The position numbers and the translations under genes are program-made. The notes beneath the pieces are model-generated. The model was not told the origin of the DNA. It did no database searches and saw nothing but the letters and a program-made list of their open reading frames with translations. From NCBI GenBank assembly GCA_030040475.1, contig JASHTQ010000285.1:1-8769 (forward strand): a stretch of DNA of 8,769 bases. Direction: 5' to 3'. The DNA is from Streptosporangiaceae bacterium (GTDB lineage: Bacteria; Actinomycetota; Actinomycetes; Streptosporangiales; Streptosporangiaceae). Of this stretch, positions 45-8,549 are shown one piece after another. Each line of letters begins with the position of its first letter. Position 1 is the stretch's first letter.

Positions 45-68
45 TGAGTAACTAACTGAGTAACTAAG
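45..68. repeat. Tandem 12-bp direct repeat at the 3' end of int
   Basis: TGAGTAACTAAC (45-56) is followed directly by TGAGTAACTAAG (57-68), identical in 11 of 12 positions. The second copy spans the integrase stop codon (TAG on the minus strand, 64-66). Tyrosine integrases of AICEs usually act on an attachment site beside int, and short direct repeats there can be arm-type integrase sites. That role is inferred from position only. Confidence 0.5.
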
Positions 69-1149
69 CATCGTGGTCCGCCTCGCCGGGGAAGATCTGG
101 TCCATGACGTCAGCGCCGTGGACGATCACCGGCCGGATCTGCTTACGGTAGATGGTCTCTGTCGTGGTCGTGCTGCTGTGGCCGACCAGGCGCGAGATGC
201 GCTCTATCGGTACATCGGCGTCGGAAAGCAGTGAGACGAAGCTGTGCCGCAGTTCGCGAGGAGTCCACTCCTGTGGATTCAGTCCGGCTGCCTCCACGAC
301 CTTGCGGAAGGAGCGCCGGACGTGTGAGGCGTCGGCTGGCCTGCCGACCTGGGAGGGGAAAACCAGGTCGTTGTCTTGCCATCTGGTGCCTGCGGCCAGT
401 CGTATCTCGTCTTGGCGCGCTCGATGGCAGCGCAGTACATCAACGCAGCGCTGTGGCAGTTTCAGCGTGCGGCGCGATTTCCTCGTCTTTGTGTCGCCGC
501 TAGCGCGAACCGAGGCCCAGACCATGATGAACGGCGGGTCACTGTCGAGGTCGACATGGGACCAGGTGAGTGCGCGGAGTTCCTCGGTTCGGGCACCGGT
601 AAGCAACGACACGACGATGTAGGCGTGGAGACTGGTGTTCTCCGCAGCGACGAGCAGGGCTTCGGCTTGGGCCAAGGTCAGCGATTTGGATGGCCGCCCG
701 GTGCGGCCTTGCGGGATGTCGCACAGCAGGACGACGTTGCGCTTGACCCTATCTCTCGCCTGAGCGCGCGTGATTGCGCGTTTCAGCACTGACCGGACTT
801 CTCGCAACGAGCGGGTGCTGAGAATTTGTGCCTTGTCGGCAAGCCATTTGTCTATGTCATCCGCCGAGAGGTCGCGGAGCTTGCGTGCACCAAGTGCCGG
901 AATAATGTGCGTGTTCGCGAGGATGGTGCACTTGATGACGGTGTTGGTGTCGCGTTCGCTCAAGCCGAAGCCGAGCCAGTCGCGAACAGCGTCAGCCACG
1001 GTGTAGCCGTAGCCTCCAATGACGAGCCCGTCTTCATATTCGCGGATGATCTCTTTGAGCTTGCGCTGGGCCTCGGTTTTGGTCCGGCCACGTGCACGCT
1101 TAACGATCCGCTTCCCATCGGGGCTGTATCTGACCGTGACGGATGCCAC
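64..1149 (-). CDS. int: Site-specific tyrosine integrase of an AICE
   Basis: A 361-residue tyrosine recombinase that would integrate and excise the element at an attachment site, normally in a tRNA gene. Residues about 1-50 form a basic arm-binding N-terminus, about 50-135 the SAM-like core-binding domain, and 155-345 the catalytic domain. Visible catalytic residues are Arg187 (in TGARTEELR), lysines 221/224, Arg301 (in PRELRHSF), His324 (in LVGHSS) and the nucleophile Tyr334 (in ETIYRKQ). The usual first His of the HxxR box is Arg298, a variant I recall from related actinomycete integrases. The start is GTG at 1149 with a weak upstream purine stretch (CGGAAAC). It lies 62 bases after xis and is probably cotranscribed with it. 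Length is usual for the family and the frame is intact. Confidence 0.93.
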   Translation of the reverse strand: MASVTVRYSPDGKRIVKRARGRTKTEAQRKLKEIIREYEDGLVIGGYGYTVADAVRDWLGFGLSERDTNTVIKCTILANTHIIPALGARKLRDLSADDIDKWLADKAQILSTRSLREVRSVLKRAITRAQARDRVKRNVVLLCDIPQGRTGRPSKSLTLAQAEALLVAAENTSLHAYIVVSLLTGARTEELRALTWSHVDLDSDPPFIMVWASVRASGDTKTRKSRRTLKLPQRCVDVLRCHRARQDEIRLAAGTRWQDNDLVFPSQVGRPADASHVRRSFRKVVEAAGLNPQEWTPRELRHSFVSLLSDADVPIERISRLVGHSSTTTTETIYRKQIRPVIVHGADVMDQIFPGEADHDA

Positions 1150-1211
1150 CTATCGTTTCCGGGCGTTGTCCCACGAGAGACCACCGTCACCGCGGCTTCT
1201 GCGAGCTGGCA

Positions 1212-1448
1212 TCAGGCGGCGTTTGCTTCCCGCTCAAGCAGGGAGATGTAGTCCGCGATCGCGGATGCAGGGATCAGCCGACTACGGCCCTGAGTTACGG
1301 ATCGCAGGCGACCTGCGCGGATTTGCTCGTAGATGACGCTCATGGACAGTACGACCATGGCGTCCACGATCCTGTACAGCTGCTTCTGGTTGGCTTCGCT
1401 TAGACTCACGTATTCATCGCTCTCCTTCGGTTGACCGACTGATGTCAT
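1212..1448 (-). CDS. xis: Excisionase-like HTH protein
   Basis: A 78-residue protein with a MerR/excisionase-type helix-turn-helix. The recognition helix region is around residues 35-48 (SVIYEQIRAGRL), followed by a wing at 49-60 (RSVTQGRSRLIP) and a C-terminal helix ending in LLEREANAA. In AICEs this protein binds near attP and directs Int towards excision. Its ATG (1446-1448) overlaps the stop of the replication gene (1445-1447) in an ATGA, so translation is probably coupled. The N-terminal 12 residues match no motif I recognise. Order rep-xis-int is the classical pSAM2-type order. Confidence 0.82.
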   Translation of the reverse strand: MTSVGQPKESDEYVSLSEANQKQLYRIVDAMVVLSMSVIYEQIRAGRLRSVTQGRSRLIPASAIADYISLLEREANAA

Positions 1449-2887
1449 GCGGCATTGCGCTGCTGCTCGCGGGCACGGGCAGCCGATGCGAGCGCGAGTT
1501 CTGCGCCGGGGGCGGCGGTGTAGCCGATTCCGGCGTAGGTCCAGGTGGCCAGGATCAGGACGACGGTTTCGTCAAGGGGCCTGCCCCAGGGGTCGCGTTC
1601 GCCGCCAGGGTGGCGTTGCTGGCGGCGGTGCTCGGTGCGGGCTTTGCGGAGCTGGCCGAAGGTGACGGAGTAGCGGCAGGATTTGGTCAGGAAGTGGCCG
1701 CCGTAGCCGAGCATGTGCGCCCAGGCCCGGAACCGTGCCTGGCCGGTGGCGCGGCGGCTGCCGAGCTGCCAGGCGGTGGTGATCATCCGTTTCTGGTGGG
1801 GCGGGCAGCGCAGGTGCTCGATGTCGGCCTGGTGGCGGAGCCGCTGAGCGGGCAGGCCAGGCACGTCAGGGTCTTGGTGGCGTACTTGGCGATGTAGTTG
1901 GCCACGGCCTGATGGTTGAGCGGCTTGCCGGTGCCGGTCAGGTCGTCGCGGCGGATCGGTCGTACGTCGGTGCCCTGCGGTGCGCCGAAGCCGAGGTTAA
2001 TGGTGGTGCCGGTGCCGTCAGGCGGGGCGATGCGGACGGCGACAGCAGCAGCCCGGACGGCATCGCACACCATCGCGGCGTCGATGCCGGGCGGCGGGGG
2101 CCGGTAGCCGTCGCCGGGGGCGTCAAGCCGGATGACCGCATGAAAGTGGACGACGCCGCGGGCCTGGTATTCGGCCACCTTGACGTACCGGATGCGGACT
2201 AGGGCACGAAGTCGTTTCTGGGTGATACCCAGGCTGCGGGCCAGATGGCGCGGCAGGTAAGTGGTGAAGCGGCGCCATAGCGTGCCTGCCCAGGCGTTGA
2301 ACAGCACGGCGGCGGTGTAGTCGTAGCAGTCCGGACACATCGGCTGGCCGAGGCGGGGATCATCTTCGACATGCCGGGTCGGGCAGGAGATGTCCCGGCC
2401 GTGCGGGCAGCGCCGTGCCGTGGCGTCGCGGCGGGGACGGCAGGGCAGCACGGTCTTGCCGTGCATCCGCCGGGAGTGAACCGGCCCGAAGGAGGGGGCG
2501 GTGAGGGTGGCGAACACACACGGGTGCGTGGCGATCGTCTCGGGGATGCCCTTGTCTCCGGCCAGCCCGGCGCGGACGAGTTGGCGGGCGTCGCGCTTGT
2601 ACACCTGGGAGCAGGCCGGGCAGACCGTCTCGCGGCGGTGACCGCAGGCGACGTGCAGCACGCCGCCGTGCTCGGCGGAGGTGTCGTAGACGCGTGCCAC
2701 TTCGCCAGTGGCCAGGTCGATCGCGTCGACGCGGCCGCGAAGCCGGATCGGGTGCGAGCAGGCTCCGGAGCTGGCGTTCCCAGGCACGGAAGTCGGCCCA
2801 GGAGATGGTCTCGGTGTCGTCGGCGTCCGCCCCAGGTCCCGGACTGGTCGGGGGTCCGGGGCTCAGGGCGGCTGTCGCGGCGGTCAT
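1445..2887 (-). pseudogene. repSA: RepSA-like HUH replication initiator with two compensating frameshifts
   Basis: Replication initiator of the pSAM2 RepSA type, which nicks the element's origin for rolling-circle replication. The start ATG (2885-2887) overlaps the upstream stop. Three segments read in two frames: residues 1-40 (2887 to about 2768), a middle part (about 2766-1868) and a C-terminal part (about 1866-1445) back in the first frame. Joined, they give about 480 residues with Cys pairs CPAC (about 89-92) and CPDC (about 184-187), the HUH-type metal motif HFH (about 247-249; codons at 2140-2148) and a NYIAKYATK tyrosine motif (about 330-338). The first shift behaves as one extra base (in CTCC near 2767), the second as one missing base (CTGAC near 1868 where CTGGAC would restore the frame). 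All family motifs survive, so the damage is either recent or a sequencing error; programmed frameshifting is unlikely, as I see no slippery heptamer. Confidence 0.85.
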
Positions 2888-4578: not shown

Positions 4579-4938
4579 CTACGGATCAGAGGGTGATGGC
4601 GGCTTCGCTTCATCCTGGCGTGGTTGGGCCGCAGTATCCAAGCCCATAACGACCCGAGCCAAGCTGACTAGGGCGGGCCACAGCTCGCTCTCAAGGTTCT
4701 TCTCGTAGTAAGCGGGGCCACGTGGATGTCCTGTCTTGGGCAAGGCACGAAGAGCTGGCGTACCGCTGAGGCGGATGAGTACGGCCCTGACGAGGCTATG
4801 GCCGAACCCGGTTCGACGAGCGATTTCGGCTGCTAGCAGTGCGCCTGGCTCGGAGTCGAGCAGGAGAACGATCTCCGCGAACTTCTCGTTCCCGAAGATG
4901 ATCGCTGAGAGGCGGCGTGTCGCAGGGGCTTCATCCAT
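4579..4938 (-). CDS. Winged-helix DNA-binding regulator
   Basis: A 119-residue protein with an ArsR/MarR-like winged helix: helix 1 about 15-28 (GNEKFAEIVLLLDSE), helix-turn-helix about 33-58 (LLAAEIARRTGFGHSLVRAVLIRL), and a wing about 64-80 ending in GPAYY. The tail from 101 is polar. No metal-binding Cys cluster is present, so a metal sensor is unlikely. It is divergent from the DUF5678-like/peptidase operon, with 91 bases between the two starts that are rich in inverted repeats. The simplest inference is that it represses itself and that operon. ATG 4938 has no good ribosome-binding site, so a leaderless or near-leaderless transcript is possible. GC is lower than in region 1. Confidence 0.72.
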   Translation of the reverse strand: MDEAPATRRLSAIIFGNEKFAEIVLLLDSEPGALLAAEIARRTGFGHSLVRAVLIRLSGTPALRALPKTGHPRGPAYYEKNLESELWPALVSLARVVMGLDTAAQPRQDEAKPPSPSDP

Positions 4939-5029
4939 AGTACGTGTAGGGTGATGCTTAAAGGCTTACCGCTTAACAGTAAGCGCTCATACATGAGCTA
5001 TTATAGCCGAGACGGGGAGGCGCAAGCAG
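4939..5029. promoter_or_regulatory. Divergent promoter/operator region with palindromes
   Basis: This gap separates the two divergent starts. GCTTA occurs at 4956-4960, 4964-4968 and 4971-4975, and its complement TAAGC at 4980-4984. The last two form a perfect hairpin, CGCTTA-ACAG-TAAGCG (4970-4985). A second perfect palindrome, GCTCAT-AC-ATGAGC, covers 4985-4998. TATTAT at 4999-5004 is a plausible -10 for the rightward operon, with TTAACA (4973-4978) upstream at a long spacing of 20. GGGGAGG (5014-5020) is the ribosome-binding site of the 5030 gene. Both palindromes would overlap RNA polymerase, as expected for operators of the neighbouring winged-helix protein. Confidence 0.6.
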
Positions 5030-5314
5030 ATGAGCAGCGCCGCCTGGCGTGTCGCTAGACTTCTGGCGTACCGTTGTGGTATGGCGAGAGGTCGTGGGCA
5101 CAAGCCCGTGGAGCCCGAACGTCGACTCCCGGAGTTGGACGGCTATATCGGCCTATGGGTGGCCGTCAAAGACGGTAAGGTGATTGCGGCAGCGTCTACT
5201 TCCTTGGAGTTGGTCACGGCGCTCCATGAACTCCGTCCAGTAGGTGCTGGGCGGGGGGCAGTTGCTCAGTACGTACCACGGCCGACTAAAGAAATCATGA
5301 TTGGCGTCGGATAG
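5030..5314 (+). CDS. Small DUF5678-like protein
   Basis: A 94-residue protein. The core at about 38-90 (GYIGLWVAVKDGKVIAA, then a helix with LELVTALHEL, then QYVPRP) fits the pattern of DUF5678: a strand pair with WVA..DGKV, a helix and a final strand. Its function is unknown. I chose ATG 5030 for its ribosome-binding site (GGGGAGG, 9 bases upstream). An internal ATG at 5081 (MARGRGHKP) is possible and would drop a short basic N-terminus that has no homologous look. The stop is 21 bases before the peptidase start, so the two are an operon. I recall DUF5678-type proteins beside retropepsin-like peptidases elsewhere, which supports a functional pair, but I cannot check it here. Confidence 0.68.
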   Translation: MSSAAWRVARLLAYRCGMARGRGHKPVEPERRLPELDGYIGLWVAVKDGKVIAAASTSLELVTALHELRPVGAGRGAVAQYVPRPTKEIMIGVG

Positions 5315-5335
5315 CACTTCCGGGGAGGGACTTCG

Positions 5336-5776
5336 GTGGTGAAGTTCCCCTATAGGGAAGAAGGAAATCCGCCGATCCTGCGGCCGACTGTCGATGTGCA
5401 TCTTGAGTGCGCACCTACCGGAGAATGGACTACCCGCGCTCTGATTGACACGGGATCACCGCTGACTGTTTTCGATCGCGGGGTAGCTGAGGCTCTATGT
5501 ATTAGCATTGGACACTTGGGCGCTGAAAGAGGCACGGTCGCCCTTTTGGGAGCATCTCGCCAGGTTCAATTTGAATACGTTGACCTAAGCCTGCCTCGGT
5601 ATCCTGGACTGTCATGGACTGCCCGTGTGGCATTCATCACAGATCGAACATTTCAGATGCCATTTCAGGGCATACTTGGCGCAGAGGGCTTCTTGAACAA
5701 GTTTGTCGTAACGTTTCATGCATATGAGAACTTCTTTTTGATCGACCACCCTGATGAATGGAAAGGCTCCGAGTGA
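5336..5776 (+). CDS. Retropepsin-like aspartic peptidase
   Basis: A 146-residue single-domain aspartic peptidase. The active-site motif is ALIDTGSPLTVFD with Asp38-Thr39-Gly40. The second conserved block, FQGILGAEGFLNKFVVTF (110-127), matches the hydrophobic-Gly strand and helix near the C-terminus of this fold, and FFLID (133-137) closes the sheet. With one DTG per chain it should act as a homodimer, like retroviral protease. There is no signal peptide or membrane segment, so it is probably cytoplasmic. The start is GTG 5336, with GGGGAGGGA 5 bases upstream (5322-5330). The natural substrate is unknown. GC content is low for the window, suggesting transfer. The IS fragment begins just after the stop, so any further gene of the operon may have been lost. 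Confidence 0.85.
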   Translation: MVKFPYREEGNPPILRPTVDVHLECAPTGEWTTRALIDTGSPLTVFDRGVAEALCISIGHLGAERGTVALLGASRQVQFEYVDLSLPRYPGLSWTARVAFITDRTFQMPFQGILGAEGFLNKFVVTFHAYENFFLIDHPDEWKGSE

Positions 5777-6060
5777 GAAGTGGAGAGCGGCGACAAAGGG
5801 TACATCGGAAACGACATGATCACGCCTTACAGGAAACCTGCGGGAGGCGAGCTGCTCGGCTGGCAGAAAGAGTACAACGCAGAGGTAAATAAGATTCGCT
5901 GGATAGTCGAGCAGGTGATCTCCCACTTCAAGAACTGGACCATCATGCACACTGACTACCGGCGGCCGCTTAAAACTTTTGAGACGACTATCTCAGCTGT
6001 AATTGGCCTGCACTTCTACCGAATGGCCTGAATAACCTTCAAGGACATAAGCTGATCCGG
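5777..6060. mobile_element. Truncated insertion sequence (right-end fragment)
   Basis: The transposase fragment plus about 30 bases after its stop would be the right end of an IS5-type element. The left end is missing at about 5777-5790. I see no matching terminal inverted repeat in the window and cannot fix the right end exactly. Confidence 0.45.
5780..6031 (+). pseudogene. 3' fragment of an IS5-type DDE transposase
   Basis: Eighty-three codons from a fortuitous GTG encode the C-terminal part of a DDE transposase of the IS5/DDE_Tnp_4 type. GDKGYIG holds the second catalytic Asp (residue 5), and WIVEQVISHFKNW the catalytic Glu (residue 44). YRRPL and AVIGLHFYRM are the usual C-terminal pattern. 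The N-terminal domain with the first Asp and any HTH are missing, so it cannot be active. The AG-rich bases before GTG belong to the junction with the peptidase gene (three bases past its stop). Confidence 0.82.
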
Positions 6061-6285: not shown

Positions 6286-6969
6286 CTAGCCGCCGTAGGT
6301 GACGCTGACCTCGTCGATATTGACGTCGACCAGTTCGCCGCGGCCGTCTCGAATCCAGCGGATGCCTGCGGCGTCGGTGAAGTGAATGGCGACCACGTAG
6401 GTCTGGGCGTCGCACCGGTCGCTCATCGTCCTGATCTCCTCCGGGATCTCGACGAATCTCTTCTCACCCGGCGGCAGGACACGTATCGGCTCGACCGGGC
6501 CGCCCCGGTCGATCGGGTACCAGGACAGCCCGCGAGGGCCGAGGCCCCCGGACGACAACTCCTGCACGAAATGAAAGAACACGCGCACGTCGAAGACGGG
6601 TAGCAGGGACGCGTTGCGAACGAAGGCGCCCCACTCCAGCCGCAGTTTCCCGGTTTCCTCCGGGTCGCTGTCTGACCCGAACCAGGCGGCGACCTGATGG
6701 GCTTGCGCTTCGCGCCGCTCGACATCCTGCCGCTCGCGCTCGTCCTGGGCGGCCCGCAGTTCCTGTTCCTGCAGCGCCATGAGCCTGACCTGCTCGTTGT
6801 TGACGCGTTTTTGATCCGCTAGCTGCTCACTCTCCAGGCGCAGCTGTTCGGCGTGGCCGTGCACCTCCTGCGACTGCTTCTCGTAGGCAAGGACGGCGGC
6901 CCCGAGGGCCAGCAGGCCGACAAGCACCAGGAGCCAGGTGGGGACGTCGCCCCAGGCCACGCTGTGCAT
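6286..6969 (-). CDS. Membrane-anchored coiled-coil protein of unknown function
   Basis: A 227-residue protein from ATG 6969. One transmembrane segment (about 12-30, WLLVLVGLLALGAAVLAY) is followed by a Gln/Glu/Arg-rich coiled coil (about 31-95), then a mostly beta domain with conserved-looking pieces GAFVRNASLLPVFDVRVFF and VVAIHFTDAAGIRWIRDGRG, ending in VSVTYGG. The topology suggests an N-terminal anchor with the beta domain in the cytoplasm, though this is not certain. The frame continues upstream to 7053 without a stop (other starts at 7008, 7053), but none has a good ribosome-binding site; GGGGA is only one base from the 6969 ATG. Proteins of this layout are frequent in actinomycetes and lack an assigned role. 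Confidence 0.72.
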   Translation of the reverse strand: MHSVAWGDVPTWLLVLVGLLALGAAVLAYEKQSQEVHGHAEQLRLESEQLADQKRVNNEQVRLMALQEQELRAAQDERERQDVERREAQAHQVAAWFGSDSDPEETGKLRLEWGAFVRNASLLPVFDVRVFFHFVQELSSGGLGPRGLSWYPIDRGGPVEPIRVLPPGEKRFVEIPEEIRTMSDRCDAQTYVVAIHFTDAAGIRWIRDGRGELVDVNIDEVSVTYGG

Positions 6970-7081
6970 GTCCCCAGAGCATAACCGCAGCCAGATCCGG
7001 TAAAGCATTCCGGCGTGCCCTTGCGCAGCGCGTTTCAGCGCAAAACAGCTCACTCAGGACCGGGCACCGCGCCGGGCACCG

Positions 7082-8361: not shown

Positions 8362-8454
8362 AATCACGATTTCGACCGTTAAGGGACAGCTGGGTGGGTG
8401 GTGACGGCGGATGTGGGGCGTCCCAATTACCACAACGGTCCCACGGTTCACCCA

Positions 8455-8549
8455 TGCCCTGCCCGTGCCCGTACCAAGTGCCCTGCCCGTGCCCGTACCA
8501 AGTGCCCGGCCCCTGCCCTGCCCCTGCCCGTACCCGGACCCGGACCAAG
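8455..8549. repeat. C-rich 24-bp tandem repeat with degenerate third part
   Basis: A 24-base unit that begins TGCCCTGCCCGTGCCC and ends GTACCAAG occurs twice without change (8455-8478, 8479-8502). A longer, diverged part follows (8503-8549) that again ends in ACCAAG. The minus strand of 8505-8529 contains five G-runs of 3-4 separated by 2-base loops, a strong G-quadruplex motif. Confidence 0.8.

Follow-up and report, generated by a model that had tools for sequence, protein, structure and literature searches.

Does the retropepsin-like aspartic peptidase encoded at this locus act alone, or does it belong to a functional unit with the small genes beside it? The window, i.e., the whole stretch of 8,769 nucleotides analyzed here, had been interpreted in a sequence-only reading as carrying a self-contained cassette of a winged-helix regulator, a DUF5678-like protein and the peptidase, in which the peptidase might cleave its small partner or the regulator.

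The three genes and their surroundings

The three open reading frames, encoding proteins of 119 (minus strand), 94 and 146 amino acids (both plus strand), are all present (Table 1), and the previously reported spacing of the two plus-strand genes was reproduced, with 21 nt between the DUF5678 stop codon and the peptidase start codon. GGGGAGGG is located at 5322-5329 within this gap. Measured in 500-base steps, the GC content fell to 0.53 and then 0.51 across 5251-6000 (two steps), was 0.56 in the following one and ranged from 0.59 to 0.74 in every other step of the window. The low-GC patch that had been assigned to all three genes was thus retained for the peptidase, whereas the regulator gene and the DUF5678 gene have a GC content of about 0.59-0.60. 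The patch mainly comprises the peptidase and the transposase remnant downstream, which starts three bases past the peptidase stop codon, where the GC content of the window is lowest. To the left of the three-gene group are an alpha/beta hydrolase gene and the genes for an integrase, an excisionase-like protein and a pSAM2-type RepSA, the latter three as found in actinomycete integrative elements. The RepSA match is divided between two frames, with profile positions 11-311 at 1783-2787 and positions 315-437 at 1445-1864, so that the element looks decayed, unless the contig carries a frame error. On the right side, a 255-aa ORF at 6286-7053 (minus strand) matched only T7 gp14, and this below the threshold (E 0.004), and a GC-rich array of short tandem repeats is located at 8451-8536 (8455-8518: period 24, 2.7 copies, 95% match).

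Table 1. Coordinates of features in the window and the basis of their assignment.
Feature	Position	Strand	Basis
Integrase, excisionase-like gene, pSAM2-type RepSA	64-2787	-	family matches
Putative small regulator, winged-helix-like (MarR/ArsR/IclR-like), 119 aa	4579-4938	-	relatives
Divergent intergenic region, putative operator/promoter	4939-5029	.	palindrome statistics
DUF5678-like small protein, 94 aa; proposed peptidase partner/inhibitor	5030-5314	+	PF18929, relatives
Retropepsin-like aspartic peptidase, single-domain, 146 aa	5336-5776	+	PF13650, conserved Asp38, predicted fold
Catalytic Asp38 codon	5447-5449	+	sequence and alignment
IS5-type DDE transposase, C-terminal 83-aa fragment	5780-6031	+	family match

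The peptidase matched Asp_protease_2 (PF13650) with an E-value of 4.8e-4 and 21.2 bits, which is below the cut-off of 24.3; 16 of 32 aligned relatives also matched this family. It has 142 close homologues at E <= 0.001, among them ACLP52_00605 of a Streptosporangiaceae MAG, which also encodes a homologue of the regulator (ACLP52_00615). The DTG motif comprises residues 38-40. A lack of conservation of Asp38 among close homologues had been named as a possible refutation of the proposed module, and this residue is unchanged in all 32 aligned peptidases. An AF2 model of the protein (pLDDT 92.7) matched APRc and retroviral proteases in fold. By its D[TS]G motif together with this predicted fold, the window peptidase is assigned to the retropepsin-like proteins (clan AA, family A2-type), and it presumably acts as a homodimer. 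Of 58 distinct DUF5678-linked peptidase ORFs with a D[ST]G motif, 39 have DSG and 19 DTG. Eleven further linked ORFs from eight places gave no match to the pattern and are mostly truncated or decayed, although one of them (L017) does contain DSG; the peptidase of L064/L143 has DFA where others have DTG. An N-terminal F-x-Y/W-[RKE] motif was considered as a mark of DUF5678-linked peptidases (20 of 58 linked versus 1 of 23 unlinked), but is suggestive rather than general. For archaeal linked peptidases (profile A10, 15 sequences from L008 and L046-L069), the top profile match was the UBA-domain Ddi1-type protease 7efy (E 5.8e-9), followed by retroviral proteases and other Ddi1 chains with E-values of about 1e-6.

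The 94-residue protein matched DUF5678 (PF18929) with an E-value of 2.8e-4 and 21.1 bits, below the cut-off of 23.2. At E <= 0.001 the family was also matched by 25 of 29 aligned relatives, the best of them with 1.5e-8, and the homologue from L002 exceeded the cut-off with 28.1 bits. There are 153 close homologues at E <= 0.001. The DUF5678 domain follows an N-terminal extension of about 36 residues that is conserved in part. Most archaeal DUF5678 proteins in the alignment stop after the same C-terminal strand as the close relatives, but without the terminal GVG, with the exception of L008. Among solved structures, the best profile match of DUF5678 was a phosphoribosyltransferase (E 0.006), followed by beta-lactamase inhibitory protein II (E 0.016); both were treated as chance matches.

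Distribution of the gene pair and of the divergent regulator

Linkage was sampled in two phyla, represented by 346 genomes of Actinomycetota (the phylum of L002) and 196 genomes of the archaeal phylum of L008, and genes upstream of the peptidase were recognized by a DUF5678 profile iterated on the same loci. When contigs were first scanned with the alignment of the peptidase, nine loci were obtained, seven of which had DUF5678 directly upstream, including that of a Methanoregulaceae archaeon (L008, 37% identity). The two exceptions are L005, whose start coincides with a contig edge, and the fragment L009. Peptidase profile A1, which was built from homologues whatever their linkage, identified 14 places in 12 actinobacterial genomes, 13 of them with DUF5678 directly upstream; the remaining one is a fragment (L086) overlapped by a regulator-like ORF. 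With the archaeal profile A10, 59 places in 25 genomes were found, and the loci of 30 were examined. DUF5678 was located upstream in 22 of these and fused to the peptidase in one, a fraction somewhat favored both by the iterated DUF5678 profile and by the origin of A10, for which linked archaeal peptidases had been used. The seven others comprise L139, which has a 54-aa DUF5678-like ORF without Pfam match directly upstream (recognized by eye), two contig edges (L146, L147) and four archaeal retropepsins for which no DUF5678 was found (L145, L148, L149, L154).

Searches starting from DUF5678 (PF18929) gave matches in 20 of the 346 actinobacterial genomes (30 places), in 21 of the 196 archaeal genomes (53 places, loci examined for 30) and in none of 14 control genomes. 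Of the 21 archaeal genomes with DUF5678, 20 also have the peptidase, which occurs in 25 genomes (p 1e-21); in Actinomycetota both were found in 10 genomes, with 20 having DUF5678 and 12 the peptidase (p 2e-12). The lists of peptidase and DUF5678 homologues shared 23 contig-length fingerprints, compared with a mean of 3.4 and a maximum of 8 in shifted controls, which is indirect evidence consistent with linkage. A module of the peptidase and its 94-residue neighbor is thus supported: separate occurrence of the two in most genomes had been named as a refutation, and they are linked in most of the places found in both sampled phyla. As a yardstick, PF13650 itself identified 44 places in the 346 actinobacterial genomes; of 30 loci examined, 15 had DUF5678 upstream and 15 did not, and therefore many actinobacterial retropepsins stand outside the module. 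Another conserved kind of actinobacterial retropepsin, with the sequence VDALVDTGS or VDAVIDTGS and without DUF5678, was observed in L096, L097 and L104.

The distribution is patchy. In the order of G003 only G003 itself gave a match among 150 genomes (E <= 1e-6), and in the order of G001 two of three genomes did. Some archaea have multiple copies, with nine DUF5678 matches in G490 and seven in G451. Searches of plasmid, phage and IMG/VR viral collections gave no match to the module, and plasmid and phage records searched with the window peptidase likewise yielded nothing; a mobile origin is not supported by these searches. In this lack of matches the pair differs from many toxin-antitoxin modules. 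The neighbors of the archaeal pairs are mixed and largely housekeeping genes. Of 206 flanking ORFs in total (122 of the first set and 84 archaeal), the 67 archaeal ones checked included one HEPN match within the best 25 of 80 families. In the first set, PemK/MazF matched three of 72 ORFs (69 of the 122 plus three from L081); this was rejected as a neighborhood enrichment, as the three toxin-antitoxin-looking L081 ORFs had been added by hand.

The regulator behaves differently from the pair. No HTH family match was obtained for the window protein; the HTH assignment is made because its relatives match, with MarR_2 and HTH_IclR each found in only two of 25 aligned relatives and a MarR match of the L002 homologue (E 1.8e-4). 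Profile matches to PDB entries were mainly HTH regulators, but not significant (best E 0.14). The protein has 53 close homologues at E <= 0.001, 50 of which carry an FGNEK motif. A divergent regulator-like gene adjoins the pair in only seven loci, all of them actinobacterial (the window, L002, L003, L004, L006, L013 and L033), and none was found in the archaeal loci scanned (L008, L045-L074). The copy of L033 (G089) is more distant and was picked up only by the iterated profile. Regulator profile A3 matched two of the 346 actinobacterial genomes, one being the cassette-bearing G002 and the other, with a decayed match, G043. The regulator is a companion of the cassette in a single branch, not a regular part of the pair, and the three-gene cassette is not supported as a general unit. 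The divergent intergenic region contains the imperfect palindrome GCTTACCGCTTAACAGTAAGC at 4964-4984, which is not significant on its own (p about 0.13 versus shuffles). For the 90 nt 5' of DUF5678 in the seven regulator-bearing loci, palindromes were stronger than in shuffles (combined p 5e-5), with single-locus values of 0.0025 for L003 and 0.0075 for L004.

Spacing, co-divergence and loss of the pair

In 49 pairs, DUF5678 and peptidase genes overlap in 29 cases, are separated by 0-30 nt in 15 and by longer distances in five, with a median of -4 nt. Since the peptidase start was taken as the start codon nearest to the domain, single spacing values are estimates. These pairs share with type II toxin-antitoxin modules the arrangement of small, close or overlapping genes with the partner first. 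The distances among the DUF5678 proteins and among the peptidases were correlated in 48 pairs (Mantel r 0.76), both within 19 archaeal pairs (0.80) and within the other 29 (28 actinobacterial pairs and archaeal L008; 0.82), and none of 2000 permutations reached the observed value; such co-divergence would also be expected from shared ancestry alone. In L056/L142 the two parts are joined in a natural fusion of 204 aa that matches DUF5678 and RVP.

The two genes differ in how often they are found without each other. Peptidases were counted as intact if 75% or more of the profile was covered and D[TS]G was present. Loci were examined for 60 places ascertained by DUF5678: the downstream peptidase is intact in 35 of them and partial or inactive-looking in 12, the profile detects none in another 12, and one is at a contig edge. 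Some of the places scored as "none" are special cases: in L023 a divergent, SEC-C-tailed retropepsin is present after all, L037 represents a tandem arrangement of two DUF5678 genes, of which it is the second, L056 adjoins the fusion, L063, L071 and L022 show peptidase remnants by eye, and L029, L039 and L044 have other architectures. Conversely, of 45 peptidase-ascertained loci, 32 pass the intact filter and 31 of these have DUF5678, the exception being L139, which is also the sole "unlinked" carrier of the F-x-Y/W-[RKE] motif; the distant retropepsins of L145 and L148 fail the filter. Thus, 31 of 32 intact peptidases have DUF5678, whereas 35 of 59 non-edge DUF5678 genes have an intact peptidase (p 6e-5, with the two sets sharing places). 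This asymmetry may in part result from the length of the peptidase (about three times that of the DUF5678 domain), from draft assemblies and from profiles trained on linked loci. Two of the loci showed further features. The linked retropepsin of L023 (3-548, minus strand) ends in a C-terminal SEC-C zinc motif, and L044 contains at 1471-2052 (minus strand) an ORF that by eye resembles a sigma factor with a partial DUF5678-like end, possibly a recombination product.

Possible roles of the DUF5678 partner

The recurrent gene order, the coupling, the co-divergence and the fusion point to DUF5678 being a stoichiometric partner of the peptidase. With confidence that is evenly balanced, we propose that 5030-5776 represents a two-gene module common to Actinomycetota and archaea in which DUF5678 holds the peptidase in check, or chaperones it. 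DUF5678 would be translated first and the retropepsin second by coupled translation; the small protein would most likely bind the peptidase stoichiometrically and inhibit (or chaperone) it until a signal removes DUF5678, and the freed peptidase would then cut one or several cellular proteins. In this actinobacterial branch, the winged-helix protein encoded divergently is the probable repressor of the operon, acting at a palindromic site. A tethered read-through model of DUF5678 and the peptidase had a pLDDT of 44 and gave no support for binding. A protective, inhibitor- or antitoxin-like partner is favored over a pure substrate by the survival of DUF5678 next to broken or missing peptidases, with the reverse being nearly absent among close peptidases. 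The recurrent pairing offers a first testable role for DUF5678, a Pfam family with no assigned function, and makes the role of prokaryotic HIV-like proteases a question of co-purification and toxicity. A more far-reaching version, which we regard as tentative and clearly less probable, is that the pairs are cross-domain toxin-antitoxin-like, possibly defensive modules with a retroviral-type protease as effector, the archaeal branch of which is related in sequence to eukaryotic Ddi1, and with DUF5678 as antitoxin, perhaps blocking the substrate cleft or the dimer sheet via its conserved C-terminal strand. Retroviral-type targeted proteolysis would then join the list of toxin mechanisms.

Alternatively, DUF5678 might be a precursor that is processed by the peptidase to an active product, as SpoIIGA processes its operon partner pro-sigma-E. 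We consider this unlikely. Adjacency and co-divergence of the genes speak in its favor; co-conservation, translational coupling and the one natural fusion agree with a stoichiometric partner or inhibitor no less well than with a substrate. The N-terminal extension could serve as a pro-segment, but some relatives, of 68 aa, lack it, and the exact C-terminal G-V/I-G in 117 of 120 close relatives leaves no C-terminal pro-segment; the retention of DUF5678 at many loci with a broken or absent peptidase would be odd for a pure substrate. Precedents for retropepsins sharing operons with functional partners are RimB and RloA (PMC11957791; PMC12239564, accessible text). We rate as equally doubtful that DUF5678 is an adaptor or activator, serving substrate delivery or dimerization in a regulated housekeeping or stress protease. 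The same linkage, co-divergence and coupling would be expected, the archaeal neighborhoods would fit, and RimB is described in the accessible text of PMC11957791 as binding and regulating its partner; however, the patchy presence, the several copies in some archaea and the frequent decay are unlike a housekeeping enzyme, and DUF5678 outlasts broken peptidases. Very improbable in our view is an ImmA/ImmR-like switch in which the peptidase cuts the divergent winged-helix repressor and thereby relieves repression of the operon or of the integrative element around it. The divergent regulator with its palindrome, the int, xis-like and RepSA genes in the same window and the COG2856-Xre precedent (PMC2701414, accessible text) would suit such a switch, but the protease is not constantly paired with a repressor, the window peptidase matched nothing in the plasmid and phage records searched, and cleavage of the regulator, one of the two activities initially suggested, is argued against as the core function by the regulator being found in only seven actinobacterial loci and in none of the archaeal loci scanned.

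The preferred reading, i.e., a peptidase controlled by DUF5678, has partial counterparts in known systems. Few prokaryotic retropepsins have been characterized so far, according to the accessible text of PMC12239564. RimB and RloA show that bacterial retropepsins work with operon partners, though with ones other than DUF5678. RimB of Pseudomonas is likewise a retropepsin-like peptidase encoded with a functional partner, of which a RimB-RimK hybrid is known, but the partner is the ATP-grasp glutamate ligase RimK and the target the poly-glutamate tails of RpsF (PMC11957791, accessible text). RloA of Pseudomonas aeruginosa also shares an operon with formerly uncharacterized partners, RloB and RloC, but is secreted, and its partners belong to other kinds, one an inactive transglutaminase and the other an ATP-grasp protein (PMC12239564, accessible text). 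APRc of Rickettsia conorii (5c9f) matches the window peptidase in fold, yet with 9% identity. The COG2856 (ImmA-like)-Xre pair is a two-gene protease-regulator module treated among toxin-antitoxin-like systems (Makarova 2009, PMC2701414), but combines a zinc protease with an Xre repressor instead of an aspartic peptidase with a partner lacking an HTH match; neither "aspartyl" nor "aspartic" appears in the accessible main text of that article. The accessible parts of PMC9252829 (PADLOC) and PMC2642776 (clan AA) contain nothing about the pair. Literature searches, with subscription papers mostly outside their coverage, found no description of DUF5678 or the pair and no relevant report of retropepsin-like, clan AA or aspartyl proteases in toxin-antitoxin systems. 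Four stand-alone DUF5678 proteins had no match among PADLOC families. Linked peptidases gave weak profile matches to the PADLOC candidates PDC-M08B and PDC-M52B (E 4e-5 to 0.06), and the L056 fusion was matched via its peptidase part and weakly by JetB.
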